64,000 nucleotides of DNA. Origin: Nothopassalora personata. Lineage: Eukaryota; Ascomycota; Dothideomycetes; Mycosphaerellales; Mycosphaerellaceae. Below, in pieces: positions 11,769 to 56,031 of this stretch (position 1 is the first letter of the stretch; each line of letters starts with the position of its first letter). The stretch is from NCBI GenBank assembly GCA_033816765.1, contig CM066299.1, positions 1 through 64,000 on the forward strand, given 5' to 3'. The position numbers and the translations under genes were made by a program. Below the pieces are notes generated by a model. The model did no database searches, had not been told where the DNA came from, and saw only the letters and a program-made list of their open reading frames with translations.

Positions 11769-12229
11769 TTATAGTTTAGAGACGGTCTATAACTAGGAGT
11801 CGACGCGGCGCGCTAATAGTCGGGTAGTAAGAGGGTAGTTAGCGGTTAGAAGGAGTAACCGGCGGAGGAAAGTAGCGCGGCCGCTCGTATCGGCCGGCGC
11901 GGCGTTATCGTCGACGGAGAATAGCCTAGCCGTCTTACTAGAGCCTATATAGGTGTTATAGGCTAGGTCGTATAGGGCGGCGGAGATAGGATCGGCCCGG
12001 GCCTCGAGGTAGACAAAGGTTAGGGGAGGGATACTATCGCCGATAACTACGTCGTACTCGAAGACTTCGATTCTCTATCCTTTAACGCGACGTAGCTATA
12101 CGAGGCCTAGCGCTAGCTAAGCGACGATCGTAGCGGAGGCATTATAGCTCTCTACGCTTTATAGAAGGCGGCTAGGATAGAGGGCGGCGAGGTAGACCTC
12201 GGCGAGGGTATAGCCTAGGTAGAGCTAGG

Positions 12230-12638
12230 TGTTACGGTTCTAATCTAGGGCTAAAGGAAGCTAACTAATTAGACCTCCACAATTGGTAGGCGCTTCTACC
12301 CGAGAAGTGCTCTCTTACCCGTAGGAATAAAACTAAGGAACCGAGAGAGTAACTAGAGTAATCTCCTTAATCTCGTTAATCTCGGTAATCTCGAGAGATC
12401 ATAGAGAGCATAGAGAGCACGGAGAGCAAACGCTCTATCTCCTTTATATTTAGGAACGCTAGAAACCCTTATGGTTCTAATACGTTTAACTTATGTTACT
12501 ATCTCACTATTTGGAATACAACTCTTATTCCTATCATTTATCTTTGCTTAGCTTACTTTAGCCTCTCTAAAGAATAATACCGCTACGTAACTTGACTTAT
12601 CTCTCTTTTAAGACTAGCCCTAGAACGAGATAATAACA
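12230..12638 (+). repeat. Gypsy A1 5' LTR
   Basis: 409 bp, starts TGTTACGG and ends AATAACA. The inner two thirds is shared with the A2 LTRs and with the undamaged solo LTR at 31666-32100; the first part is not. Confidence 0.95.
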
Positions 12639-14074: not shown

Positions 14075-14088
14075 TAGAACGGATCATA

Positions 14089-14848
14089 TTGATTGATTAT
14101 TCCATTAACGTGCTATTTGAGTCAAAGACTATGCAACACGGGTCTCGAGAACGAGACCAAAATTTGAGAGAAGGAGAAAAGCCCCGTCGTACCCCGGACG
14201 TAAAAACTCCTTAAAAGATGCGAGCAACGCTCGCTATTCGAACCGTAAATCGAATATATTGCGGCGTAGTACGCGCGTACCCGGTAGTCGTGTCTTGTCG
14301 AGAATTGCGGTTTGTCGCCTTGCCCCGGGCGAGACAAGTTTTGCGCCCGTGTCTCGTTCTTGTTTTAAAAAGCCAAGCCGGCCGTACCCGTACGCACCGA
14401 GCAAAATCCCAAGAAACACCCGTTGCCTCTGTTTCAATCCAGTCGCGTTCTCCGGTCTCGAGTGTAGCTCCTCGGTCGCAGTGGCCTCGCTGTCGTCCCC
14501 CCCTCGGCCTCTCTTGGTTCCAGCCGTGCAGTATACGTGGTTTGCGCCCCTAAACGCCTCTCTTGGTTCCAGCCGGCAGTTTACGTGGTTTGCCGGGACG
14601 ACAGGTAGACAGCGCCTTCGTTGTTCGAGCGACGTGTACGCTATGTACGTCGCTTTCCCTTCTCGCAGTTCCGGAGTTCTTGTTTGTAGATTTTGAGCGT
14701 ATCTCGTTCGTTCGGTTCGTCCGACCTGTCTTTTCTTGTTTCGAGTCGAGTAGGCTTGTATTTTCTCGAGAGAGAGTCTTAGTTTCTCTTCGTCGTAACG
14801 AAGATACTTACGTCGTCCGCCGCGTGAAGGCGCTCTCTATAGGACGAC
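14089..14848 (-). mobile_element. Undamaged ~760-bp retroposon (SINE/LINE-derived type), copy 1
   Basis: Flanked by a perfect 14-bp duplication TAGAACGGATCATA (14075-14088 and 14849-14862). In element orientation (minus) it starts GTCGTCC, with an 8-bp-class inverted repeat to GGACGAC, and ends in an (AATC)n simple tail. A variable-length target duplication plus a simple-repeat tail are features of LINE-mobilised retroposons. Inside is a ~48-bp internal duplication (CCTCTCTTGGTTCCAGCC twice, about 14509 and 14556). CpA and TpG are plentiful, unlike the host. Several overlapping short frames exist on both strands, and none has a recognisable domain. Nearly identical to 21775-22539. Confidence 0.8.
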
Positions 14849-19025: not shown

Positions 19026-19589
19026 TTACGAAGGAGACGGCTAAGCTACCGACGGCACCGTCTCGCTAGAAGGAGAAAGCTAGAAGTCGTCCGGAAGACC
19101 TTCGACAGTACTCTAGGTCTAAGGAGATAAGGACAGATTAGGAGTACTGGGATCCGCGTCTACTACAGCGTACTCCTACGCCCCTAGATCCTCGTCTAGT
19201 AATAACCGATCTTCTAACGAACGACCCTCCGTAACCTTCTAATTAACCGCATCTAATTGCTTACGAAGGCGCATTTCCTTTATATACGCTTCTATTAAGG
19301 CATCCTGCCTTTTACTAAGAATCCTCTTCGCGGTATCTAGTTCCTGTAACAATTTCTTCCGCTAAAGCGATAAGCGCTTCTACTCGCCCTCGGTTACCCT
19401 CGTATTGCAACTCTTTAGATTCCGCTACTAGCACTCGGAATAGCGACTAGATGAGATGTGCACCTTATATACACGGCCCTCCTTTTAATAAGAATTACAC
19501 GGACGCATCGCGGTATCGCCGTTACGAAAGATCTACTAGGCTTTCTTCTTACGGCGAGCGGTAGATTTAGATTAGGAGGAAGAAGACAT
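19026..19589 (-). pseudogene. Antisense accessory frame of Gypsy A1: zinc-cluster/coiled-coil protein
   Basis: From ATG at 19589 a 187-codon frame runs opposite to gag-pol, between the tRNA-like sequence and the 3' LTR. The N-terminus is Ser-rich then basic (STARRKKKA). A cluster follows with spacing C-X2-C-X6-C-X8-C-X2-C-X7-C, in which the second, third and fourth cysteines are now TAT, as TG-to-TA change of TGT would give. Then comes a Lys/Arg/Glu/Leu-rich, heptad-like stretch (KKLLQELDTAKRILSKRQ) and an acidic/Ser/Pro tail. The spacing is that of fungal Zn(II)2Cys6 DNA-binding domains. All internal stops are TAA or TAG. Equivalents lie at 22553-23110 and 54252-54806. The function within the element is unknown. 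Confidence 0.7.
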
Positions 19590-19664
19590 CGTTACGAGAT
19601 ACGAAAAGGAAGTATAACATAACTTATAAAGCTCTAGGACAGAGCTAGGCTAAAAGGGGGATGG

Positions 19665-20073
19665 TGTTACGGTTCTAATCTAGGGCTAAAGGAAGCTAAC
19701 TAATTAGACCTCTACAATTAGTAGGCGCTTCTACCCGAGAAGTGCTCTCTTACCCGTAGGAATAAAACTAAGGAACCGAGAGAGTAACTAAAGTAATCTC
19801 CTTAATCTCGGTAATCTCGGTAATCTCGAGAGAGCATAGAGAGCATAGAGAGCACGGAGAGTAAACGCTCTATCTCCTTTATATTTAGGAACGCTAGAAA
19901 CCCTTATGGTTCTAATACGTTTAACTTATGTTACTATCTCACTAATTGGAATATAACTCTTATTCCTATTATTTATCTTCGCTTAGCTTACTTTAGCCTC
20001 TCTAAAGAATAATACCGCCACGTGACTTAACTTATCTCTCTTTTAAGACTAGCCCTAGAACGAGATAATAACA
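19665..20073 (+). repeat. Gypsy A1 3' LTR
   Basis: 409-bp partner of 12230-12638, preceded by the polypurine tract and followed by the target duplication CTAGG. Confidence 0.95.
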
Positions 20074-21296: not shown

Positions 21297-21683
21297 TGTT
21301 ATTGTCTCGTTCTAGGGCTAGTCTTAAAAGAGAGATAAGTTAAGTCACGTGGCGGTATTATTCTTTAGAGAGGCTAAAGTAAGCTAAGCGAAGATGAATG
21401 ATAGGAATAAGAGTTATATTCCAATTAGTAAGATAGTAACATAAGTTGAACGCATTAGAACCATAAGGGTTTCTAGCGTTCCTAAATACAAAGGAGATTC
21501 GCGGCGTAGAGCCTATAGCTCAGTATAATTACCTTAATTAGTCCTACTAAGCATACTAATTACACTAATTAGTCCGTAAAGTGATTAGTGTCACGTGCGT
21601 CTAGATGATTAGTATTACGTGTTTCTAAGTAATTAGTGTTTCGTGTGTCTAGTCGGGGCTACCGTTTAGACCGAACCGTAATA
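21297..21683 (-). repeat. Gypsy A2 3' LTR with U3 tandem repeats
   Basis: 387-bp LTR. Its U3 part (right side here) contains three ~25-bp units built on GATTAGTGTCACGTGCGTCT (about 21579-21654), two of them with CACGTG or close variants. That is a plausible cluster of bHLH-type binding sites. The body left of about 21510 matches the A1 LTR; the U3 does not. Confidence 0.9.
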
Positions 21684-21774
21684 CTATCCCCCTTCTAGCC
21701 TAGCTTAGTCCCTTAAGCTTACTTATAACGAACGGTATCCTCTATATATTCGCGTATAGCTTCTTCCCTTTGCG

Positions 21775-22539
21775 GTCGTCCTATAGAGAGCGCCTTCACG
21801 CGGCGGACGACGTAAGTATCTTCGTTACGACGAAGAGAAACTAAGACTCTCTCTCTCGAAAAATACAAGCCTACTCGACTCGAAACAAGAAAAGACAGGT
21901 CGGACGAACCGAACGAACGAGATACGCTCAAAATCTACAAACAAGAACTCCGGAACTGCGAGAAGGGAAAGCGACGTACATAGCGTACACGTCGCTCGAA
22001 CAACGAAGGCGCTGTCTACCTGTCGTCCCGGCAAACCACGTAAACTGCCGGCTGGAACCAAGAGAGGCGTTTAGGGGCGCAAACCACGTATACTGCACGG
22101 CTGGAACCAAGAGAGGCCGAGGGGGGGACGACAGCGAGGCCACTGCGACCGAGGAGCTACACTCGAGACCGGAGAACGCGACTGGATTGAAACAGAGGCA
22201 ACGGGTGTTTCTTGGGATTTTGCTCGGTGCGTACGGGTACGGCCGGCTTGGCTTTTTAAAACAAGAACGAGACACGGGCGCAAAACTTGTCTCGCCCGGG
22301 GCAAGGCGACAAACCGCAATTCTCGACAAGACACGACTACCGGGTACGCGCGTACTACGCCGCAATATATTCGATTTACGGTTCGAATAGCGAGCGTTGC
22401 TCGCATCTTTTAAGGAGTTTTTACGTCCGGGGTACGACGGGGCTTTTCTCCTTCTCTCAAATTTTGGTCTCGTTCTCGAGACCCGTGTTGCATAGTCTTT
22501 GACTCAAATAGCACGTTAATGGAATAATCAATCAATCAA
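21775..22539 (+). mobile_element. Undamaged ~765-bp retroposon (SINE/LINE-derived type), copy 2
   Basis: Flanked by a perfect 13-bp duplication TCTTCCCTTTGCG (21762-21774 and 22540-22552). It starts GTCGTCC, whose complement GGACGAC at 21805-21811 would form a 5' terminal hairpin, and ends AATCAATCAATCAA. It encodes the same 145-, 111-, 71- and 67-codon overlapping frames as copy 1 with identical predicted residues. Small indels are visible, for example in the GAGAGAGAG run near 21855. It retains CpA/TpG throughout. A B-box-like GGTTCGAATAG occurs near 22380 but far from the 5' end, so an internal Pol III promoter is not established. It splits the 5' leader of the antisense frame from its ATG. 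Confidence 0.8.
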
Positions 22540-22552
22540 TCTTCCCTTTGCG

Positions 22553-23110
22553 ATGCCTATCCACTAACGCCCTTCTAGCACTATCCGTCGCCGCCGTCTC
22601 TACGAGTTCGTTAAATCCGCGGGAGAAGTTATAGTTAAGAAATGCTTAACGTGTAAAAAGCATAGTCGCGTGTGTAAGGTACACATTCGTTCCGGGAAGT
22701 GTAGTAAGTGTCTTCGTCGCGGCTAAAGGTGCGATGTAAGAGTAACTTAGTCGGAGTTTAAGAGGTTAGTAGAGGAGAAGGCTCGTCTTCGTTAGAAAAT
22801 CTAGGAGTCTCGGTCCGCTTAGGAGGAGGCAATACGGGTTCATAAGAAGGCTCTCGAGGATCTAAAGATTACTCGCGCGCGCGAGGAGCGCTTACGTTAG
22901 TAGATGGATCTAGTGGATCGTCGTGCCGAGGAGGCGATTTCCGTTAAGGAAAGGGAGATCGAGGAGCAGGAGATAGAAGAGGCTTCTTTACTTCCTTCGG
23001 ATATCCCTTGTAAGGGTCTAGCTCTTAACTTGTTACTAGGTACATAGGGTGCTATTAAGGGTCTCGGTAACGAGTTCTAGGAGGTACCCGAACTACTCCC
23101 TACTAGTTGA
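22553..23110 (+). pseudogene. Antisense accessory frame of Gypsy A2: Zn(II)2Cys6-like cluster plus coiled coil
   Basis: The best-preserved of three copies. From ATG at 22553, 185 codons run opposite to A2 gag-pol and end at TGA (23108-23110). Residues 31-60 hold all six cysteines as C-X2-C-X6-C-X8-C-X2-C-X6-C with basic residues between them (first cluster Cys codon at 22643, last at 22730). This is exactly the fungal binuclear zinc-cluster spacing. Residues about 65-140 are rich in Arg, Lys, Glu and Leu with heptad-like periodicity, suggesting a dimerising coiled coil; the tail is acidic then hydrophobic. Internal stops are TAA/TAG only (for example codon 5), consistent with RIP of Gln/Trp codons. 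The retroposon's target duplication ends at the base before the ATG. A DNA-binding role is inferred from the spacing only. Confidence 0.75.
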
Positions 23111-23114
23111 CTTA

Positions 23115-26100
23115 TAGGTCTTTGTTTTTCTTATAATATTCTCGGATCTTTTATTAACAGTTTTGTAGCTTCTTTTCTAGTTCCCAGGTATTTTCTAATT
23201 CGTCGTATCCTTTCCATTTAATAAGGTATCGCTAACCTTTCTTATCTAGGATTCTTTTAACTTCAAATTCGTTTTCTGCTTCCGGTTCGAAATGGAAGCT
23301 CTCCTAGTAGGGTGTTTTGGCGTCTACGGGTTCTAACTTAGAGATATAGAAGACTAGGTGGATTCTTACGTCTAGTAGTAGTCGTAGGCGGTAGTTAACT
23401 AGTCCTATGACTTTGTCAATAAAAAATGGTCCGACCTTAACGTAATCTAGTTTCTTAGTCTATCTTCTTGTTCTTAAGTTTTTTGTAAGGAGATAGACCT
23501 TATCCCCCTCTTTTAGTAGAGGTGCCATTTTTCTCGTGTCCTACCGTTATTAAGACAGTTTGTGTTATATATCTTCGATCGCCTTACGTGTTTCTTTATA
23601 CACTTCCTTAAGAGTATCCGTCATTACGATTGCTCTTTCGGCTTGTAGGTAGGATCTAGGTGTTCTAAATAGGTTAGGATCTTTACTAAAGTTTGCATAA
23701 AATGGTGTCGTTAAAGTTGTCTCTAATTTATGGTTGTTTAGTGCAATCTACGCCATTGGCAGTAATGAGACCTAGTTGTCTTATGCATAATTGATGTAGT
23801 GTCGTAGGTATTGTTCTAGCGTTTAATTCATCCTTTCGGTTTGTCCGTCTATTTCCGGATAATATGCTATTAATAGCTTATGTTTAATTCCGATCGTTCC
23901 TATAAGCGTCTTGTAGTAGTTTAATGTAAATAGCTTATCTCTGTCCGTTATAAACGCTTAAGGGAATCCGTAGTATCGGATAAGTCTATCTAGTACGAGG
24001 TATCCGAGCTGCTCTACATTGTACGTTTCTAATGTAGGAATGAAGTGTGCGTATTTCGTAAGTCTATTAACTATAACTAGTATCATGTCGTATAGTTGTT
24101 TCGTAACTTAATCTCTTAACGGTAGGAGTTTCGTAATAAAGTCTATTGTAACTTCGTCCTATGGTTTCGTCGGTAGTGTCCTAAACTATAGGTGACCGTA
24201 TTTTGCATGTCTTGCAGCCTTGTTTCGTTAGTAGTGTACGCATTGTTTAATGTAGCGTAATACCTTAAGTCTCATTTATAGGAATGAGAAGCTACGCTAT
24301 ATTAGGTCCATTGTTTTTAAAGTTCTAGGGTGTCTATAAGTTAGTCCGTCGTAATGTTATCGTATACATTCTTCTTCTCGATCCTTAGGTACTTAGTATT
24401 TTCCTTGCGATATAGGGAATTGTTTGTCCCTATCGCCTAATATCCGTACCATGTTATTGAATTCTCTTATGTTAGTACTAAGACTTCCGTCGGGGTTCGT
24501 CTTTAATATCTTATGTTGCACTAGTTCTTTTTCTTCTATATAGTCGCTTCTTTAGCTTAGCGCGTCGGCGCGGCCATTCTCTCGTCCTAGAGTATATTTA
24601 ATTTCGAACTTATACTGTCCTAGCAGCTCCGACTAGCGGGCTTGCCTTCGGGTAAGTTCTTTCGTCGTCGTAAAGTACGTAAGATTCTTATAGTTAGAAA
24701 GAATCGTTAACTTCGGTAGGCCCTCGACATATACTCTCTAATGTTACATAGCAGCAACAATGGCTAGGAGCTCTTTGTTATAGATGTCGTAGTTCTGTTC
24801 CGCTATAGTCATTTTCCGGGAGTAATAGGCTACTAGGTGTCTCTACCTATCGTGTGTCTACGTTAGATACGCGCCTATTGCTATATTAGACGCATCGGTC
24901 TCGATGTAGACTTCCTTACTACTATCGAATAATCGAAGCGTAGGGGCTAAAGCGCATTATTCCTTAAGTTTCCTAAATGCTTTAGTCTATTCCTTTCCCT
25001 ATTTCTAAGTAACGTCCTTTCTCGTAAGTATCGTCATTAGTGCTACTATTTTCGCGTAGTCCTTAATGAATTTCCTGTTGTAGTTCGCTAGTCTAAGGAA
25101 TGATTGTACGTCCTTAACTGTTTTTAGTTCTAGCTACTCTCTAATTAACTATGTCTTCGTAGGGTCGATCGTTATCCCTATAGTGCTAATAATAAAGCCT
25201 AAGAATTTGACTTCTTTCTTATAGAACTCGCATTTCTCGGGTACCGTCTTAAATCCTAATTGCGTAAGTCGTTCGAAGACGTCCTAGACTTGTTTTATGT
25301 GTTCCTATAGGGATCCTTTTATGTAGACTAGTATGTCGTCTATATAGGCGATAACGCATACGTCGAGTAGGTCTCTAAGTGTTTCGTTTATAAGGTCCTA
25401 GCAGGATGCGGGTGCGTTAGTTAATCCTATTAGCATAACTAAGAATTCGTAGAGTCCGTATCTTGTTCTGAAAGCGGTTTTCCATTCTTCTCCTTCTACT
25501 ATCCGTATAGCGTAGAAGGCATCTCGTAGGTCAATCTTCGTGTACTAGTTCGATCCGGTTAATCTGTCTTATGCTTCTTCGATGTTAGGTAGCGGGTATC
25601 GGTTCTTAATCGTAATCTCGTTTAACTTCCTATAGTCTTATACGAGTCGTAACTTCCCGTTTACTTTTGGAACGAACATATATAGAGTTCCTACACTTAA
25701 GGTGGATCTTCTTATCTATCCTTTAGCTAGCTTCTCCTTTAGCTATTCTCGTAGGGTCTATAGCTCTTCCTTAGACATTTAATATAGGGGTCCCTATAGA
25801 GGCTCTTTCCCTAGCTAAATGTTAATCTTATGATCCTATAGGCGGTACTTAGGTAAGGCGGTTTTACCTCTTTCCTCTTTAAAGAGTCGCGACTACTTAC
25901 GATACTCCTTAGGAATACTCAACTCTAAGATGTTAGTATTCTTCGATGGTGCGTTACTTCTATTACTTCTAGTAACTTCGTAACCCGGCGGCCCTACGCT
26001 AGTATCTGTCCCGGTCGAAGGTGGTTCTTCTATCCTTCTATTCGGCGTAAGCTGTATCTCGTTTAGCTGTTTCCTTACCTTATCTACTAGTGAACGCTGC

Positions 26101-27060
26101 TACTACGTAGGCTAAATGTCGACAACGTAATCGCATTCCCTAAATGTAAGTACTCCTCTTCTCTAGTCGATTACTAGATTGTACTTTCTTAACTAAGGCA
26201 TACCTAATACTATGTTATAACTGGCTATATTAGTAACATCTAAGGTAATATTCTCGTAGTACTATTAGATAGCTAGTGGCAATAGTATCGTCTCCCATTC
26301 TACGCTAGGTAACGATAATCCGTTTACCACGATTAACTCGAAACCCCATTTCTTCTTTAGGGTAGCTAACCCGTTTCTTCTTATAAAAGACTCGGAGATA
26401 AAATTCCCCGCTACTCCTAAGTCAATTATAACACTAGTCTTATGTCCGTTAACGATTGCTTATGTATAGAAAACTGTGTTTAATGTCGATGCATAAGCCT
26501 AAGTATTGCATAACTCCCTCCGGTCGCTTATTCCTAGGGAGCTAATCCTTTTCCCGAATAGTATGTAGTTCGCTATACTTCGTGCCTAGAGGCTTTGGCT
26601 AGAACCTATAGCCCGTTGCCCTATGTCTACACTTGTAGTCTATTGCGTTCCTAGATCTTCTACGTTTCTAAGTAGAGTGCGCGTGCGTGTTACACTATGT
26701 TACGTAATTTATTCGATATAAATGTTCCTAACAGTGTAAGATATCCGGTTCCTATTATTCGGCTTCCTATCGGTAGTCGTTCTATAACGGTAGTTACTAG
26801 ATTCTCGGTTGTTTCTATAAGTGGGTATCCCTAGGCTATACCTCGTAGGGTATCGAGTGTCTTATTAAACTTAATGGAATGTAGCTTCCTTCGTCCACCT
26901 ATCTTAGGTAGGAATTCCTCGTGCCTTCTTTATAGGTAGATGATTATGTCGTACAGTTTCTTAGGTGCATCTACCGTAAAGGTAAGTTATTCGTTGTCGT
27001 CGTTAGTGTCGCTCTCTTCTCCTTCGGAGGAATCTTCTTCGCTTAATTCTTCCGGATCCT
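23115..27060 (-). pseudogene. Gypsy A2 pol (protease, RT, RNase H, integrase, chromodomain)
   Basis: Same domain order as A1, read on the minus strand. The chromodomain is at about 23130-23250 (KWKGYDELENTWE-type), the integrase core at about 23640-24170, RNase H at about 24640-24910, RT at about 25130-25680 with TAT ATA GAC GAC (YIDD) at 25335-25346, and protease at about 26170-26450. Fewer stop codons than A1 or B, and several stretches of 40-60 codons are open. Still no complete open frame. Confidence 0.9.
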
Positions 27061-27069
27061 GTTCTTCCT

Positions 27070-28550
27070 CGATAGCATCTAGCCCGGTAGTTTCTTAACT
27101 TTCTTCCTATAGTTCTAGTAACCATAATCCGTTCCATCCTAGGTCCTGATTTTCTTTATCGCTTCTATCTTCGTTAAAGTAGGATTTATCGATGTCTACT
27201 TCTCTAAGCGTAGCGTTTTGCCTATGCGTCGCTCCTAGGGTTCCTCGTAGTTGCTAAGGCTAATACCCTACGCCTAATTTCGCGGCGTAGTAGATTTAAC
27301 ACGAGTCTTAGTAACAGAATCGCTAATAAAGGCTTCTATAACCATTTCGAGACTCGGATTCGGTCTCGTAGTCGACTCTTCGTGTTATTATGTTGAACTA
27401 TCGTAGTTAGTTCTTCGCATTAAATAGAATGACCACCATTTGCTGCCTATAGTATCCTCCTCGTCCTTCTAAGGGGTCTAGGAGAGGCGTCGTGCTTCTA
27501 TTGTTAGCTCTCTCCTCTACTCTCCGAGTATAGTCGGTATCTCCTCGAGATCTAACGCTGCTCTTAGATTTACTAGTTCGGGGTTGCATTATATTAAATT
27601 GCTCGCGGTGCACTATATTTTTACCGTAGCAATCTCGCGCTATGTAGCCTTCCGTACTATAGGCATAATATGTAAGTTTTCCTTTTCCTTTAAAGGGCTT
27701 TCCGTAGCCCCTACTCTTATCGATCTTCCGTCCTCGTTAGGTAACGTCTAGTTCCATTAGCTATAGTCTATAGTAGGGCTAGCTTTGTCGTAAGAATTCT
27801 CCCTTCGTAACGTATCCTCCTAAGGGTCTACGGTCCGGAGCGTATCCTACTATTCCTCCTACTTTAGAGTCGTATCTCTTCTCCTAGTGTCGTTCCTAGA
27901 GCTAGTTATCGATATTGATCGACGCCTTCATTAGCTCTTCGAGGTTAGTAATCCGTCCCCCGTGTCTTGTTAACTCGTCCTTAACGGAGTCTTTAAGTCT
28001 ACGTCGGAACATAGTTATTAACGCCGTCTAGTCCCATCCGGTAATTTGTCCGTATTCTTCGAATTTGGCTGCATACTCTAAAGTAGACGTCTTCTACTTT
28101 AGGTGTTAAATAATTCGTATAGCCTATTAGACTTCGTTCGAGGTTCTAAAGATTGATTTCATCTTATCTTTAAAGAGAGTGTAGCTCCTAAACATTCCAG
28201 TAGGGTCCAATCGTCCTATACCTTTAAGGTATTCCTTAAGGTAAGGTTTGATCTAGTTCTGCGCACTTCCGCGAAGGTACGTAATAGCGAAGATAGTTCT
28301 TTTATCGGCATCGACTAGGTTAAACATAAGATATATATCTATCTAATTAATCTAGTCGTCGAACTTAGCCCTGTCTCTATAGAAAAGGTCTAGCTTAGTA
28401 GCCTTAACGTCGTTCCTCCTTAGAGTAGGCTCGTTATCGTTATTAGACTTATCGTCCTTCGTAGTAGTCTATTGTAGTAGCGCACGGCGGATGCTTCCTA
28501 CTTCGCTAGGAGCGGGTGTTCCCCTACTAGCTGCTTAAGTAGCGCTCATC
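27070..28550 (-). pseudogene. Gypsy A2 gag
   Basis: Minus-strand reading matches A1 gag: the Retrotrans_gag segment lies at about 27950-28400. An open 68-codon stretch at 27407-27613 (Met-His-Arg-Glu-Gln-Phe-Asn start, Arg/Ser-rich) covers the region after the knuckle. The knuckle at about 27640-27670 is damaged (tyrosine codons where cysteines are expected). Stops are sparser than in A1. Confidence 0.8.
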
Positions 28551-28566
28551 CTAAGGGCGTTTAAAG

Positions 28567-28953
28567 TGTTATTATCTCGTTCTAGGGCTAGTCTTAAAAG
28601 AGAGATAAGTCAAGTCACGTAGCGGTATTATTCTTTAGAGAGGCTGAAGCAAGCTAAGCGAAGATGAATGATAGGAATAAGAGTTGTATTCCAATTAGTA
28701 AGATAGTAACATAAGTTGAACGCATTAGAACCATAAGGGTTTCTAGCGTTCCTAAATATAAAGGAGATTTGCGGCGTAGAGCCTATAGCTTAGTATAATT
28801 ACCTTAATTAGTCCTACTGAGCATACTAATTACACTAATTAGTCCGTAAAGTGATTAGTATCACGTGCGTCTAGATAATTAGTATCACGTGTTTCTAAGT
28901 GATTAGTGTTTCGTGTATCTAGTCGGGGCTGCCGTTTAGACCGAACCGTAACA
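28567..28953 (-). repeat. Gypsy A2 5' LTR
   Basis: Partner of 21297-21683. It carries the same three U3 repeats (about 28849-28923) and the A1-like body, and is followed by the target duplication CCGTA. Confidence 0.92.
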
Positions 28954-28958
28954 CCGTA

Positions 28959-49499: not shown

Positions 49500-50533
49500 A
49501 TAAATAAAATAAAAGCTAAAGAGTAGCGCGCCTACTAGGGGCTACGTAGAGTAGTAGTAGGCGAGGAGCCCGCGAGTAGCGTGTAAGGCGAGCGCCTTAG
49601 TTGTCGTTACGTAGTAACTTAGGTAGGAACGCCTAGTCGGTAGCGGTAGTATTAATGTTCTACGCCTATAGGAACTGGGACTACGGTTAGTAGGGTACAC
49701 GTATGCGAGGAACATACGACTTACGGCGCGGCCGAGTTTAAGTAGCCTATTAAGGGCGCGGTTCTACTCCTACTAGAGCGCGAGGGCTTCGGCGGCGGGG
49801 GCGGCGGTAGTAGTAGCGGCGGCGGCGGAGGTACGTATATAGGTTTCCCCGGTACGCTTATACTTATAGGCATTAAACTACCTAATAGCCTATAGAAAGG
49901 GTTAGCCGAAGCATAGGAGACGCACTAGAGCCCCTCCCGCGAGTAGTAGTCGACTCGTACGAGCGAAGTAGCGACTTACCTCCGTAATGTCGTTACCTAG
50001 CTAGGTACATAGGCGGATCTACTCTACTAGCTCCTACTACTAGAGGTCTATAGGCGCCTAGCCTATTATAGCCGTAAGGAAGTCGCGCTAGGAGCGCGCG
50101 GCGCGTAGGCGGCTTACTAGCGAGGCGATAGCGTAGCTAGTATTAGGCACGTAGCTATATCTATTACGCCTATAGCGGCTACACTTCCTTAGGAGCTCGC
50201 CGGTAGTAACACTATTACAGTTATCGACTTCGTCTAGTAAGTGGTTAGTATACGAATCGTAGGCGGTACGCGTAGAGACTTACCCCTAACGAAGTATAGG
50301 AGGTACCGTATGTATATATTAATCCTCTACGAGAGCTTAGTAGCGGGCGAGGGCGTTAGTAGCTACGAGGGTAATACTAGTCGCTTACGACTACTAGGCG
50401 TTCTAGGTACGTCGCGTACTAGAGCCGCCTAGCGGCGCTCGTCTTCTAAGGTAGTAGTAGTACTATCGCTACTACTACTACTAGAGGAGGCGGAGCGGCT
50501 AGAGAATGGCGGCGAGGAGGGCCCGTCCGACAT
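49500..50533 (-). pseudogene. Possible antisense frame in the 3' interior of Gypsy C
   Basis: From ATG at 50533 the minus strand encodes a Ser/Pro-rich N-terminus (MSDGPSSPPFSSRSAS) for about 90 codons. A different minus-strand frame is then more coherent from about 50260 to 49500, with TAG/TAA-only stops, a Gln/Arg/Leu-rich stretch and an alanine-rich run. The switch would need an intron (a GTAAGT lies near 50277) or an indel. Its position matches the antisense frames in Gypsy A, B and D, but no domain or cysteine cluster is seen. Confidence 0.3.
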
Positions 50534-50837
50534 AATAATAATAATGATAATACTAGTAAGGCGCTTACGGTACGGGTACGGTGCGGGTACGTAGTAGTAG
50601 TACGACGAAGGTAGTACGCTAGGGAACATACTAAGAAAGGGCTAGGTTAGGCTAGAGTTTTATGCTCCTAACTAGCTACGTCGGTATAGTAACTAAGCCT
50701 TACTTACCTATACCTACATAACGACACGCACGTAACCCGTATATAGGCCGTATAGCAACTATAGTTCTAGAAGTACGTAGGAACCTCTACGTAGCAACTA
50801 GCGAGCTAAGGATAGCTCGTACGGGAGGGGAGGCAAT

Positions 50838-51033
50838 TATAAGGGGCAGCCTAGTAGCTAACCCTTATATGTAGCCTTATATATAATATACGGTCGCGAC
50901 CGGCTACTAAGCCGCACGTAACACGTATACGTACACCTTACGACGCGCGATGCGTCTTAAACAAAAGGCAAGAATTAGTTCATCTACGACTAGTAGGTCG
51001 TGGGCGTGCTATACATTACGACATCCCTTAATA
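50838..51033 (+). repeat. Gypsy C 3' LTR
   Basis: 196-bp partner of 44086-44281; both terminal dinucleotides altered by RIP (TA...TA). Confidence 0.92.
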
Positions 51034-54000
51034 GTATGCCTTAGTTAAGAAAGTATAATCTAGTAATCGACTAGAGAAGAGGAGTACTTATATTTAGGGA
51101 ATACGACTGCGTTATCGACATTTAGCCTACGTAGCGGTAGCGTTCGCTAGTAGATAAGGTAAAGAGACAGCTAAATAGGATATAGCTTACGCTAAATAGA
51201 AGGATAGAAGAACTACCTTCGACCGGGATAGACACTAGCGTAGGGCCGCCGGGTTACGAAGTTACTAGTAGCGATAGAAGTAACGCACTATCGAAGGATA
51301 CTAACATCTTAGAGTTAAGTATTCCTAAGGAGTATCGTAAGTAGTCGCGACTCTTTAAAGAGGAAAGAGGTAAGGATGCCTTACCTAAGTACTAACTATA
51401 GGATTATAAGATAAACATTTAGCTAGAGAAAGAGTCTCTATAGGGACCCCTATATTAAATGTCTAAGAAAGAGCTATAGACCCTACGAGAATAGCTAAAG
51501 GAGAAGCTAGCTAAAGGATAGATAAGAAGATCTACCTTAAGTGTAGGAACTCTATATATGTTCGTTCTAAAAGTAAACGGGAAGTTACGACTCGTATAAG
51601 ACTATAGGAAGTTAAACGAGATTACGATTAAGAACCGATACCCGCTACCTAACATCGAAGAAGCATAAGATAGATTAACCGGATTAGACTAGTATACGAA
51701 GATTAACCTACGAGATACCTTCTACGCTATACGGATAGCGGAAGGAGAAGAATAGAAAACCGCTTTTAGAATAAGATACGGACTTTACGAATTCTTAGTT
51801 ATGCTAATAGGATTAACTAACGTACCCGCATTCTATTAGGACCTTATTAACGAGACACTTAGAGACCTACTCGATGTATATGTTATCGCTTATATAGACG
51901 ACATATTAGTCTACACGAAAGGATCCCTTTAGAATTATATAAAGTAAGTCTAGGACGTATTCGAACGACTTACGCGTTTAGGATTTAAGACAGCACCCGA
52001 GAAATGCAAATTCTATAAGAAAGAAGTTAAATTCTTAGGCTTTATTATTAGTACTACGGGGATAACGATCGACCCTACGAAGACATAGTTAATTAGAGAA
52101 TAGCTAGAACTAAAAACAGTTAGGGACGTACAATTATTCCTTAGACTAGCGAACTATAACCGGAAATTCATTAAGGACTACGTAAAGACAGCGGTACTAA
52201 TAACGATGCTTATAAGAAAAGACGTTACCTAGAAATAGGGAAAGGAACAGATTAAAGCGTTTAAGAAACTTAAGGAACAATGCCCTTTAGCCCCTACGCT
52301 TCGACTATTCGATAGTAGTAAGGAAGTCTATATCGAGACCGATGCGTCTAATATAGCAATAGGCGCGTGTCTAACATAGACATACGATAGGTAGAGACAC
52401 CTAGTAGCCTATTACTCCCGGAAAATAACTATAGCGGAATAGAACCACGACATCTATAATAAAGAGCTTCTAGCTATTATTACTACTATATAGTATTAGA
52501 GAGTATATGTCGAGGGCCTACCGAAGTTAACGATTCTTTCTAACTATAAGAATCTTACGTACTTTACGATAATAAAGGAACTTACCCGAAGACAAGCCCG
52601 CTAGTCGGAGCTACTAGGGCAATATAAGTTCGAGATTAAATATACTCTAGGAAGAGAGAACGGCCGCGCTAATGCGCTAAGCTAAAGAAGTAACTATATA
52701 GAAGGAAAAGAACTAGTGCAACATAAAATATTAAAGATAAACCCCGACGAAAGTCTTAGTATAAACACGAGAGAATTCAATAACATTATACGGATACTAG
52801 ACAATAAGGACGAACAATTCCCTACATCGTAGGGAAAATACTAAGTACCTAAGAATTGAGAAGAAGAATGCATACGATAATACTACTACGGACTAATATA
52901 TAGACACCCTAGAACTTCGAAAACAATAGACCTAATATAGCGTAGCTTCTCATTCCTATAGATAAGACAAAAGGTGCTACGCTACATTAAGCAATACGTG
53001 CACTACTAACGAAACAAGGCTACGAGATATACGAAATACGGTTACCTACAGTTTATGACACTACCGACGAAACTATAGGACGAAGTTATAATAGACTTTA
53101 TTACGAAACTCCTACCGTTAAGAGACTAAGTTACGAAACAACTATACGACATAATACTAGTTATAGTTAATAGACTTACGAAATACGTACACTTTATTCC
53201 TACATCGGAAACGTATAATACGGAGTAGCTCGGATACCTTATACTAGATAGACTTATCCGATACTACAGATTCCCTTAAGCGTTTATAACGGATAGAGAT
53301 AGGCTATTTACATTAAACTACTAGAAGACGCTTATAGGAACGATCGGAATTAAACATAAGCTATTAATAGCATATTATCCGGAGATAGACGGATAAACCG
53401 AAAGAATAAACTAGACACTAGAACAATATCTACGACACTATATTAACTACGCATAAGACAACTAGGTTTTATTACTACTAATAGCGTAGATTGCACTAAA
53501 CAACTACAAATTAGAGACAACTTTAACGACGCTATTCTATGCGAACTTTAGTAAAGACCCTAACCTATTTAGAACACCTAGATCCTACCTATAAGCCGAA
53601 AGAGTAATCGTAACGACGGATACTCTTAAGGAAGTACATAAAGAAATACGTAAGGCGATCGAAGATGTATAATATAAACTGTCTTAATAACGGTAAGACA
53701 CGAGAAAAATAGCACCTCTACTAAAAGAGGGGGATAAGGTCTATCTCCTTATAATAAACTTAAGAATAAGAAGATAGACTAAGAAACTAGATTACGTTAA
53801 AGTCGGACTATTTTTTATCGATAAAGTTATAGGACTAGTTAATTACCGCCTACGACTACTACCCGACGCTAAAATCTACCTAGTCTTCTACATCTCTAAG
53901 TTAGAACCTATAGACGCTAAAACACCCTACTAGGAAAGCTTCTATTTCGAGCTAGAAGTAGAAAACGAATTCGAAGTCAAAAAAATCCTAGATAAGAAAG

Positions 54001-54095
54001 GTTAGCGATACCTCGTTAAATAGAAAGGATACGACGAATTAGAAAATACCTAGGAACTAAAACAAACCCTACGAAACTGTTAGCAAAAAATCCGA
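51034..54095 (+). pseudogene. Gypsy B pol remnant
   Basis: Protease tail to about 51240. RT at about 51530-52130 with TAT ATA GAC GAC (YIDD) at 51891-51902. RNase H at about 52330-52560 ([16 protein letters not shown]). Integrase core at about 53080-53600. The chromodomain is at about 53960-54080. Stop density is higher than in A1 and A2. Confidence 0.88.
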
Positions 54096-54153
54096 TAATA
54101 CTAAAATAGGTCCGCTAAGACGACTAACGACAATCGATCTCTTAGCCGACGAG

Positions 54154-54227
54154 CGACTAGGGTAGGAATCGAACCTACGGCCTTAAGAGTTTAGGTAGCT
54201 TACGCTCTACTACTAAGCTACCTAGCC
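54154..54227 (-). tRNA. tRNA-like sequence inside Gypsy B (antisense to the element)
   Basis: Counterpart of 18912-18985 with the same 74-nt length. Acceptor GGCTAGG/CCTAGTC pairs (one G-U), the D-arm is the same, and the T-arm GTAGG-TTCGATT-CCTAC is the same. The two copies differ mostly by transitions and keep the arms paired. The anticodon arm is again irregular (4 bp, 11-nt loop), so identity is not assignable. Confidence 0.65.
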
Positions 54228-54251
54228 GATTAATAGGAACAGGGATACAAC

Positions 54252-54806
54252 TTACAAATAAGTACCCTAATAAGTTTCTACCCCTAGGGACTCGCCCTAG
54301 GACTCCGCCCTAGAAAGCGCCGCCTAGTCGTTTACGGGTATCTCTAGGATATCCGAGAAAGAAACTAGCGAAGGCGACACCTCTACCCCCGACGCCTACT
54401 CGAGAGACGCTAGCTCCTCGCGTGCCTCTTCCTCCTCGAGCTCCTCTAACTCCTTAGCGACGGTATCGTCGGTACGACGCTTAGCTAAGCGTAGCTGTTT
54501 CCGAAGACGGACCTTACGTATCTTTAGCCGTACCTCCTCCTCTTCAATCCTCTTAAGCTCTAGCTTAAGCTTATCGCGCGAATCGTAAAGACGTTCCTAC
54601 TCCGGACGAGAAAGACGTACGTCGCAATCTTTATAGCCTTTTCGGATATAGGCCGAACACTTCCTAGACCGAGAACCTACGATACACTTTATTACCGCGC
54701 CCGAGGATCGAGACTTCTAACAATTCGTGTATAGAGCTATCTTAATACTAGAAATTTCAGTATCTAGAGTAAGTCGTTAACGGCGCTTATAGGAGGAAGA
54801 AGTTAT
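54252..54806 (-). pseudogene. Antisense accessory frame of Gypsy B: zinc-cluster/coiled-coil protein
   Basis: A 184-codon minus-strand frame that starts at 54806, where ATA probably was ATG in a TATG context. The cluster reads C-X2-C-X12-C-X8-C-X2-C-X7-C, with the first and fifth cysteines now TAC and TAT. The second spacing is longer than in A1/A2, but the X8 and X2 spacings are kept. A strongly charged Lys/Arg/Glu/Leu heptad region follows (EEEEVRLKIRKVRLRKQL), then an acidic Ser-rich tail. Same length, position and architecture as the A1 and A2 frames, though the sequence is diverged. Confidence 0.65.
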
Positions 54807-54879
54807 AGTTAACTACTACTATAAGAAATAATAACGGCTTATAAAGCTTCGGGACGAAGCTAGACTAAAAAGGGGATAG

Positions 54880-55314
54880 TGTTACGGAATAATTCTTATA
54901 GACCCTAGAATTATAAGAATAAGACGAGTACGTAACTTATCCTACCTAAGCGCTTAGACTTAGGGCGATTAGACTGCTTATGCTTAGACTTAGAACGATT
55001 AGACTACTTATGCTTAGACGAATTAGACTACTTATGCTTAGAGTAATTAGACTAATTACCGAGATCTACGAATCTCCTTTATACTTAGAATCGCTAAGAA
55101 TCCCTTATAGTTTCGATGCGTTTAACTCACTGTTTAATATTACTGTTTAGAGTACACCGTAACCTAAACCTCTACCTTACTACTACTTAGTCTTTATAAG
55201 ACAAGACAGCTACTGCTTTATTACTCTCCCTCGACTTCCTATTAGCCCGAGAATAAACCCGATTAAGCTTGTCTTCTTAACTTGTAATATCATTAGGTTA
55301 TACTAAACCTAATA
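54880..55314 (+). repeat. Gypsy B 3' LTR
   Basis: 435 bp, starts TGTTACGGAATAATTC. Contains about four direct repeats of a 25-30 bp GCTTAGACTTAGNNCGATTAGACT-type unit at 54950-55060. An inverted copy of the LTR lies at 55604-56031. Confidence 0.88.
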
Positions 55315-56031
55315 CTATGCTCGTCCTCTTAAGAACGTAGTAGTAAAGATAGGCTTAAGGTTCTTAGGCATAGAGTTAAATAAGAAGTATATATCTATCT
55401 AAGAGACCTAAGTATCGAACTTGTCTTAGTCGCTATAGTAGTATTCTAGCTTACTAACCTTAAGGGTATCGTTACCTATATAAGTAGCTAAGGCATTAAT
55501 AGCATCGTTCGCGGTCTAAGGTCGTCGGGCTCTACTTACTTTACTAGGGGCGGGTATTCCCCGTTTACTCTATCGGTCTCCTATCGTAGAGGGCGTTTAA
55601 AGCTATTAGGTTTAGTATAACCTAATAATATTATAAGTTAAGAAGATAAGCTTAATCGGGTTTGTTCTCGGGCCGATAGGAAGTAGAGGGAGAGTAATAA
55701 AGCAGTAGCTGTCTTATCTCGTAGAGACTAAGTAGCAGTAAGGTAGAGGTTAGGTTATAGTGTATTCTAAACAGTAATATTAAACAGTAAGTTGAACGCA
55801 TCGAAACTATAAGGGGTTCTTAGCGTTCCTAAATATAAAGGAGATTTGTAGATCTCGGTAATTAGTCTAATTATTCTAAGCATAAGCAGCCTAATTAGTC
55901 TAAGCATAAGCAGTCTAATTAGTCTAAGCATAAGTAGTCTAATCGCCCTAAGTCTAAGCGCTTAGGTAGGATAAGTTACGTACTCGTCTTATTATTATAA
56001 TTCTAGGGTCTATAAGAATCATTCCGTAACA
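55315..56031 (-). mobile_element. Inverted Gypsy B end (5' LTR plus gag start)
   Basis: 55604-56031 is the Gypsy B LTR in reverse orientation. 55315-55603 reads on the minus strand as the start of a gag frame (KLEYYYSD, FLFNSMPKNLK), like A1 gag. The gag fragment ends where the plus-strand LTR of Gypsy B ends, so the two truncated elements meet tail-to-inside in opposite orientation. Confidence 0.8.

Follow-up and report, generated by a model that had tools for sequence, protein, structure and literature searches.

A zinc-cluster-like antisense gene in chromovirus retrotransposons of Nothopassalora personata and its linkage to the U3 region

Complex retroviruses encode their own sequence-specific transcription regulators with matching sites in the long terminal repeat (LTR), and HBZ, the antisense gene product of human T-cell leukaemia virus type 1 (HTLV-1), is a basic leucine zipper (bZIP) factor. 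Among fungal retrotransposons, brtn was reportedly presented by Zhao et al. in 2011 (Virology 417:248) as an antisense gene of Boty-like Gypsy elements. Passages of later papers place it between pol and the 3' LTR of Boty-like chromodomain Gypsy elements in Botrytis cinerea (PMC8365987, PMC4227169, PMC5987419), and these passages mention neither a zinc cluster nor a linkage to U3. The plant Gypsy elements Retand, Grande and RIRE2 likewise carry an antisense open reading frame (aORF) between pol and the 3' LTR. According to part of one paper, the antisense TRP28 domain of Retand is probably able to bind DNA and occurs in flowering plants only, and HBZ is nuclear and of importance for the virus (PMC11963269); a passage of a review adds that an antisense promoter lies within the 3' LTR of HTLV (PMC7264820). 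Here we describe an aORF in a 64,000-nucleotide stretch of the Nothopassalora personata genome (assembly GCA_033816765.1, contig CM066299.1, positions 1 to 64,000; hereafter the window). It belongs to a Gypsy element, element B, its product resembles fungal zinc-cluster activators, and it may encode a regulator of the element's own LTR.

The place of this aORF is that of brtn, antisense in the pol/3' LTR interval of a fungal chromodomain Gypsy element, the two being likened by description only. It differs from the Retand gene, which has a TRP28 domain in a non-chromovirus Gypsy lineage, whereas the aORF is zinc-cluster-like and sits in a chromovirus. HBZ is also the product of an antisense gene, but the aORF belongs to a fungal retrotransposon, is zinc-cluster-like, and no homology between them was seen. 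A preliminary description of the locus had held that no standard Gypsy gene of this kind was known. This is too broad, as genes in antisense orientation had already been found in the pol/3' LTR interval (brtn of Boty; plant Gypsy elements); the gene described here is a zinc-cluster-like variant. Among the papers listed by literature searches, no title or abstract opening deals with an antisense gene of zinc-cluster type in fungal retrotransposons, although the original brtn paper may already report a zinc cluster, and the words "antisense" and "zinc" are absent by word count from the main texts of two fungal retrotransposon surveys (PMC3248453, PMC4112212).

The antisense gene and its protein family

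The aORF lies at 22553-23110 on the plus strand, starts with ATG and comprises 185 codons and a final stop. It is antisense between the pol end and the 3' LTR of element B, which is on the minus strand and consists of a 5' LTR (about 28567-28954), a broken gag-pol interior (23111-28566) whose pol end is convergent with the aORF, and a 3' LTR (about 21297-21684) divided into U3 (about 21499-21684) and R-U5 (about 21297-21498). The translation contains C-X2-C-X6-C-X8-C-X2-C-X6-C at residues 31, 34, 41, 50, 53 and 60, followed, as in its relatives, by a helix at residues 66-146 and an acidic tail with a TW motif. The ATG frame, its exact six-cysteine spacing and its antisense position are therefore present as first described. 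The frame is not open at this locus: ten internal stops rule it out as a working gene, and at least seven stops are found in every one of the 40 copies read in the 54.5-Mb genome (the best 40 of 68 candidates were scored; all are of the element B family, window copy included). In 38 of these copies, two with indels being left out, 1566 of the 1665 differences from an open relative are C>T or G>A, and 1463 of these are in a CpA/TpG context, an excess that attributes the stops to repeat-induced point mutation (RIP).

A database search with one translated copy, in which stops were masked as X, found 91 of 322 scored candidates to be homologous at E<=0.01, which rules out a chance open reading frame; a slightly relaxed form of the six-cysteine pattern is seen in 77 of the 91. 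In two alignment searches, 173 of 7999 candidates matched at E<=0.001 and 181 of 8000 at E<=0.01, of which 120 were listed in each case, with 53 and 61 further matches beyond them. The species named among the matches listed are Cercospora kikuchii, Elsinoe australis, Sporormia fimetaria, Cryoendolithus antarcticus, Bathelium mastoideum and Hortaea werneckii, all Dothideomycetes and from five orders. None of the matches listed is named BRTN and none of the named species is outside the Dothideomycetes, most matches carrying no species name. No relative was confirmed in GTDB contigs or IMG/VR.

Zn2Cys6 proteins follow the rule C-X2-C-X6-C-X5-12-C-X2-C-X6-8-C. Of 140 fetched proteins, 126 conform to it, the last gap being six residues in 120 and seven in 6. 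The other 14 comprise seven that are cut short ahead of or inside the cluster and seven in which a cysteine or some of the cluster is missing. Five cysteines are invariant in an alignment of 50 proteins (A1) and the sixth is kept in at least 90%; an ST-RR motif ahead of the cluster and, in the tail, a P-TW motif are also conserved. Between four element types of the N. personata genome (S1 to S4, see below), the proportion of nonsynonymous differences (pN) in the aORF is 0.38-0.48 and that of synonymous differences (pS) 0.71-0.81 over 167-181 codons; pN well below pS indicates a protein under constraint, though synonymous sites are near saturation. The suggestion that the gene is element-encoded is thus borne out: homologues in other species keep the cysteines nearly invariant, and intact copies were found beyond the window family, as open aORFs in other element types of the same genome. 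By these comparisons, the aORF is a genuine accessory gene carried by a Dothideomycete chromovirus lineage.

In a structural model, the predicted product (about 185-200 residues) resembles a GAL4-type zinc cluster; behind the cluster come a heptad-patterned helix and an acidic tail. The model has a predicted local distance difference test (pLDDT) score of 81, nine of the ten entries listed for it by VIA-align are Zn2Cys6 activators, and it superposes on LAC9, GAL4, LEU3 and PPR1 with a root-mean-square deviation of 1.6-1.8 over 33-35 residues. Median values for the 50 aligned proteins are +9 for the N-terminal net charge, 3.5 residues for the helix periodicity and -7 for the tail charge, and the tail is free of Lys and Arg in 42 of them. 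The long helix would serve in dimerisation, and the tail, which is rich in leucine and aromatic residues, could serve in activation. The aORF protein shares with the activators GAL4, LAC9, PPR1, LEU3, PHO7 and HAP1 the cysteine spacing, a predicted coiled coil behind the cluster and an acidic tail, and over residues 28-63 its model resembles their fold. Zn2Cys6 activators typically have a proline in the loop that joins their two cysteine triplets; the aORF protein lacks it, is only about 185 residues long and is encoded by a retroelement.

Plain membership of the Pfam family Zn_clus was rejected, the matches falling below the curated cut-off. The cluster region alone gave a Zn_clus match in 14 of 19 members (best E 0.0031), with 12.4 bits against a cut-off of 21 in one tabulated member, and no aORF locus with Zn_clus was seen when the listing of a Pfam genome scan was inspected by eye. 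Sequence searches of the PDB had Gfh1 as top match with A1, through the coiled coil (E 0.005), and LAC9 only at E 1.6; with the cluster alone, they gave MDM4 (E 2.3) and LAC9 (E 4.8). Of the binuclear-cluster transcription factor layout read from the window, the spacing and a helix with 3.5-residue periodicity stand, accompanied by a Zn2Cys6-like fold in the model and an acidic tail; the Zn_clus cut-off is not reached.

Element types and the linked U3 region

A genome search with P0001, in which the best 150 of 886 candidates were scored, yielded 53 aORF rows without internal stop by our own count, at least one of which (L084) is shifted near its start. Four loci define the types: S1 (L071), S2 (L081), S3 (L082) and S4 (L083). 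In the first three, an open aORF is convergent with an open partial pol containing integrase domains and a chromodomain; Chromo, Integrase_H2C2 and SH3_Tf2-1 are above the cut-off in all three pol frames and rve is just under it in all three. These domains, identified in the open relatives and not in the element B copy, make the hosts of the aORF chromoviruses as judged from their sequence, that is, Gypsy elements with integrase followed by a chromodomain. In S1 and S2, the ends of pol and the aORF overlap (by about 54 and 111 bp, respectively); in S3 a gap of about 140 bp separates them. With TGTTACGG taken as the LTR edge, the distance from there to the aORF start is about 77-92 bp in each of the four types. 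The genome contains 149 forward and 149 reverse occurrences of GGGGATGGTGTTACGG, the word at the polypurine tract and LTR edge, against none for a control pattern, indicating a large lineage in which many copies have this site unmutated.

The S4 locus (G000:C2:1332200-1335500) has LTR-like repeats at both ends, a gag gene (Retrotrans_gag, zinc knuckle) and an open aORF, which together occupy the whole interval between the repeats and leave no room for pol. The 14 S4 aORFs examined all adjoin a U3 of their own type, with nearly identical U3 copies spaced 2136-2194 bp apart, so that the short pol-less form is the rule for S4, a non-autonomous element of about 2.1 kb from U3 to U3 with at least 14 copies. 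Three U3s at G000:C8:1779229-1783626 are spaced at 2137 bp, which would fit two tandem copies with one LTR in common. TR-GAG elements are gag-only non-autonomous LTR elements; the S4 type is alike in its LTRs, gag, lack of pol and many near-identical copies, and additionally keeps the antisense gene. That this parasite lost pol while keeping both gag and the aORF suggests that the latter is of use.

The aORF type and the U3 type go together. S1 and S3 are 95.4% identical in pol DNA over 1477 bp, reaching to about 25 bp short of the aORF end (synonymous divergence, dS, 0.17), and 98% identical in R-U5 over 205 bp, whereas their aORF proteins are 37% identical with a dS of about 2.6, near saturation, and their U3s are unalignable. 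Within this block, similarity is limited to two stretches, one of 48 bp at the LTR edge and polypurine tract and one of 35 bp in the aORF's cluster region. Near-identical pol and R-U5 flanking a dissimilar aORF and U3 indicate that the block was exchanged and did not diverge slowly. During reverse transcription U3 is copied from the 3' end, so a single template switch at the pol end is mechanically enough. Among the 58 of 150 aORF rows that were typed, 48 adjoin a U3 of their own type (5 of 5, 15 of 15, 14 of 24 and 14 of 14 by type) and none a U3 of another type; for S1 and S2 the U3 rows used were the best 20 of 41 and the best 35 of 41, respectively, and for S3 and S4 all 40, and the ten S3 aORFs without a listed U3 fall outside the best 40 of 227 U3 candidates. 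Copies within a type are near-clones, and the types are therefore the independent units of this count.

Each U3 contains repeats with a GATC core and type-specific flanks, first spotted by eye: ACTGATCA in S1, TTGATCTG in S2, TTGATCTC in S3 and GGGATCTG in S4, each of these 8-mers being missing from the other three U3s. The U3s of S1 to S4 (186-281 bp) have 7, 11, 5 and 6 GATC, counts matched by 0, 0, 2.2 and 0.25% of 2000 shuffles, respectively; none was found in R-U5 of the three types measured. A fifth element, examined afterwards, has a U3 with tandem AAGAGATC and five GATC directly ahead of TATATA; its locus (L016:1-700) is the remnant of a fifth aORF type. The five U3 types are mostly unalignable, with the GATC-core repeats clustered upstream of R, and GATC is their best shared tetramer, none of 1500 shuffle sets having any tetramer as good. 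The core is GATC and not CGG, a further difference from Zn2Cys6 activators, and tallies of CGG and CCG in the U3s gave no usable pattern.

Proposed function of the antisense protein

We consider it an even chance that the aORF encodes a zinc-cluster-like regulator of the element's own LTR, a self-specific switch driving sense transcription through the GATC repeats of U3. The start of the aORF close to the 3' LTR, from which it reads away, makes a promoter in this LTR most likely, and the gene would be transcribed from there on the opposite strand. The product would have the build of a minimal fungal activator, with a basic N-terminus carrying the Zn2Cys6-like cluster, a dimerising helix and an activating acidic tail; it would bind the clustered GATC-core repeats in U3s of its own type and thereby drive sense transcription from the 5' LTR. 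Such a regulator is probably an activator, as favoured by the acidic tail, expression and binding being predicted only. The preliminary description had left the choice between a DNA-binding regulator and a targeting factor; the U3 linkage and the U3 repeats strengthen the regulator, and nothing favours targeting.

More tentatively, the aORF and U3 may form an exchangeable self-recognition block, in which a regulator and its cognate operator array pass together from one gag-pol backbone to another, near-identical one. Mutually independent control groups would thereby arise in one genome, to be likened to the heteroimmune control regions of phages, and the pol-less parasite would keep the block to stay controllable.

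Several observations weigh against regulation through the U3 repeats by a zinc-cluster protein. No aORF protein examined has a Zn_clus (PF00172) match reaching the Pfam curated cut-off. Some U3 stretches are related, S2 and S4 over 42 bp at 81% and S4 and the L016 flank over 67 bp, at the end of the L016 U3 stretch, at 82%. The shuffle null leaves tandem duplication unmodelled. The RIP-hit U3s of the window retain no or one GATC, and that of a third element in the window, element C, is too RIP-hit to be judged. When the L016 stretch was trimmed to the part not common with S4, four GATC were left (1 of 2000 shuffles); GATC was still first with S2 left out and second with S4 left out, and none of 1000 shuffle sets equalled it either way.

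A repressor acting on its own U3 for copy-number or immunity control, as in the immunity regions of lambdoid phages, with swapped elements escaping resident control, seems unlikely. The U3 linkage and the GATC repeats fit it as well, and the presence of several types in one genome, among them a pair that differ in their control blocks while having nearly the same pol, fits such an escape; the acidic aromatic tail, however, looks like an activation domain, and a pol-less parasite would more readily be expected to keep an activator. We also doubt that the protein has its role at another stage of the life cycle, be it nuclear import, packaging or the choice of integration sites, with the aORF and U3 moving together merely as neighbours. 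One template switch at the pol end would yield the observed mosaic, and some plant antisense ORF products are nuclear and of unknown role, according to a review passage (PMC7264820), but neither the GATC-core repeats common to the U3 types nor the activator-like layout would then be explained. That antisense RNA is the functional product, or the frame a passenger, is very improbable: antisense transcripts may silence elements through double-stranded RNA, as the same review notes in part (PMC7264820), and all 40 copies read of the window family are broken, but their breaks are RIP damage, and the low pN relative to pS across types, the invariant cysteines and the open frames in other sources speak for a protein.

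Other elements of the window and wider meaning

Element A, the plus-strand neighbour of element B, has its 5' LTR at 12228-12638 and its 3' LTR at 19663-20073 (plus strand, starts approximate), and a broken aORF of type S3 on the minus strand at 19029-19589. Element C (about 50000-55900) is a heavily RIP-hit Gypsy element with a decayed aORF homologue on the minus strand at about 54336-54803 and tandem GATTAGAC-like repeats in U3. In element B, an insertion of about 765 bp (21775-22539, unstranded) parts the aORF from the 3' LTR and is missing there from the other 39 of the 40 copies compared. A solo LTR was dropped as its identity, a TCAA-repeat end and a target duplication of about 12 bp better fitting a non-LTR insertion. 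The insertion at 14088-14848 in element A is 99.6% identical to it (about 761-765 bp, TCAA/ATTG-repeat end, target duplications of about 12 bp). From their sequence, both are probably copies of a recently active non-LTR element, similar to a long or short interspersed nuclear element, that arrived after RIP.

If the proposed regulation of the own LTR is true, a fungal retrotransposon brings its own sequence-specific transcription regulator together with matching LTR binding sites. This would explain the role of at least one class of antisense retrotransposon genes, a question left open in the part of a plant review that treats them (PMC7264820). The aORF types and U3 types represent ready-made matched and mismatched pairs. 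Finally, regulators encoded by such elements could also affect host genes lying beside solo LTRs.
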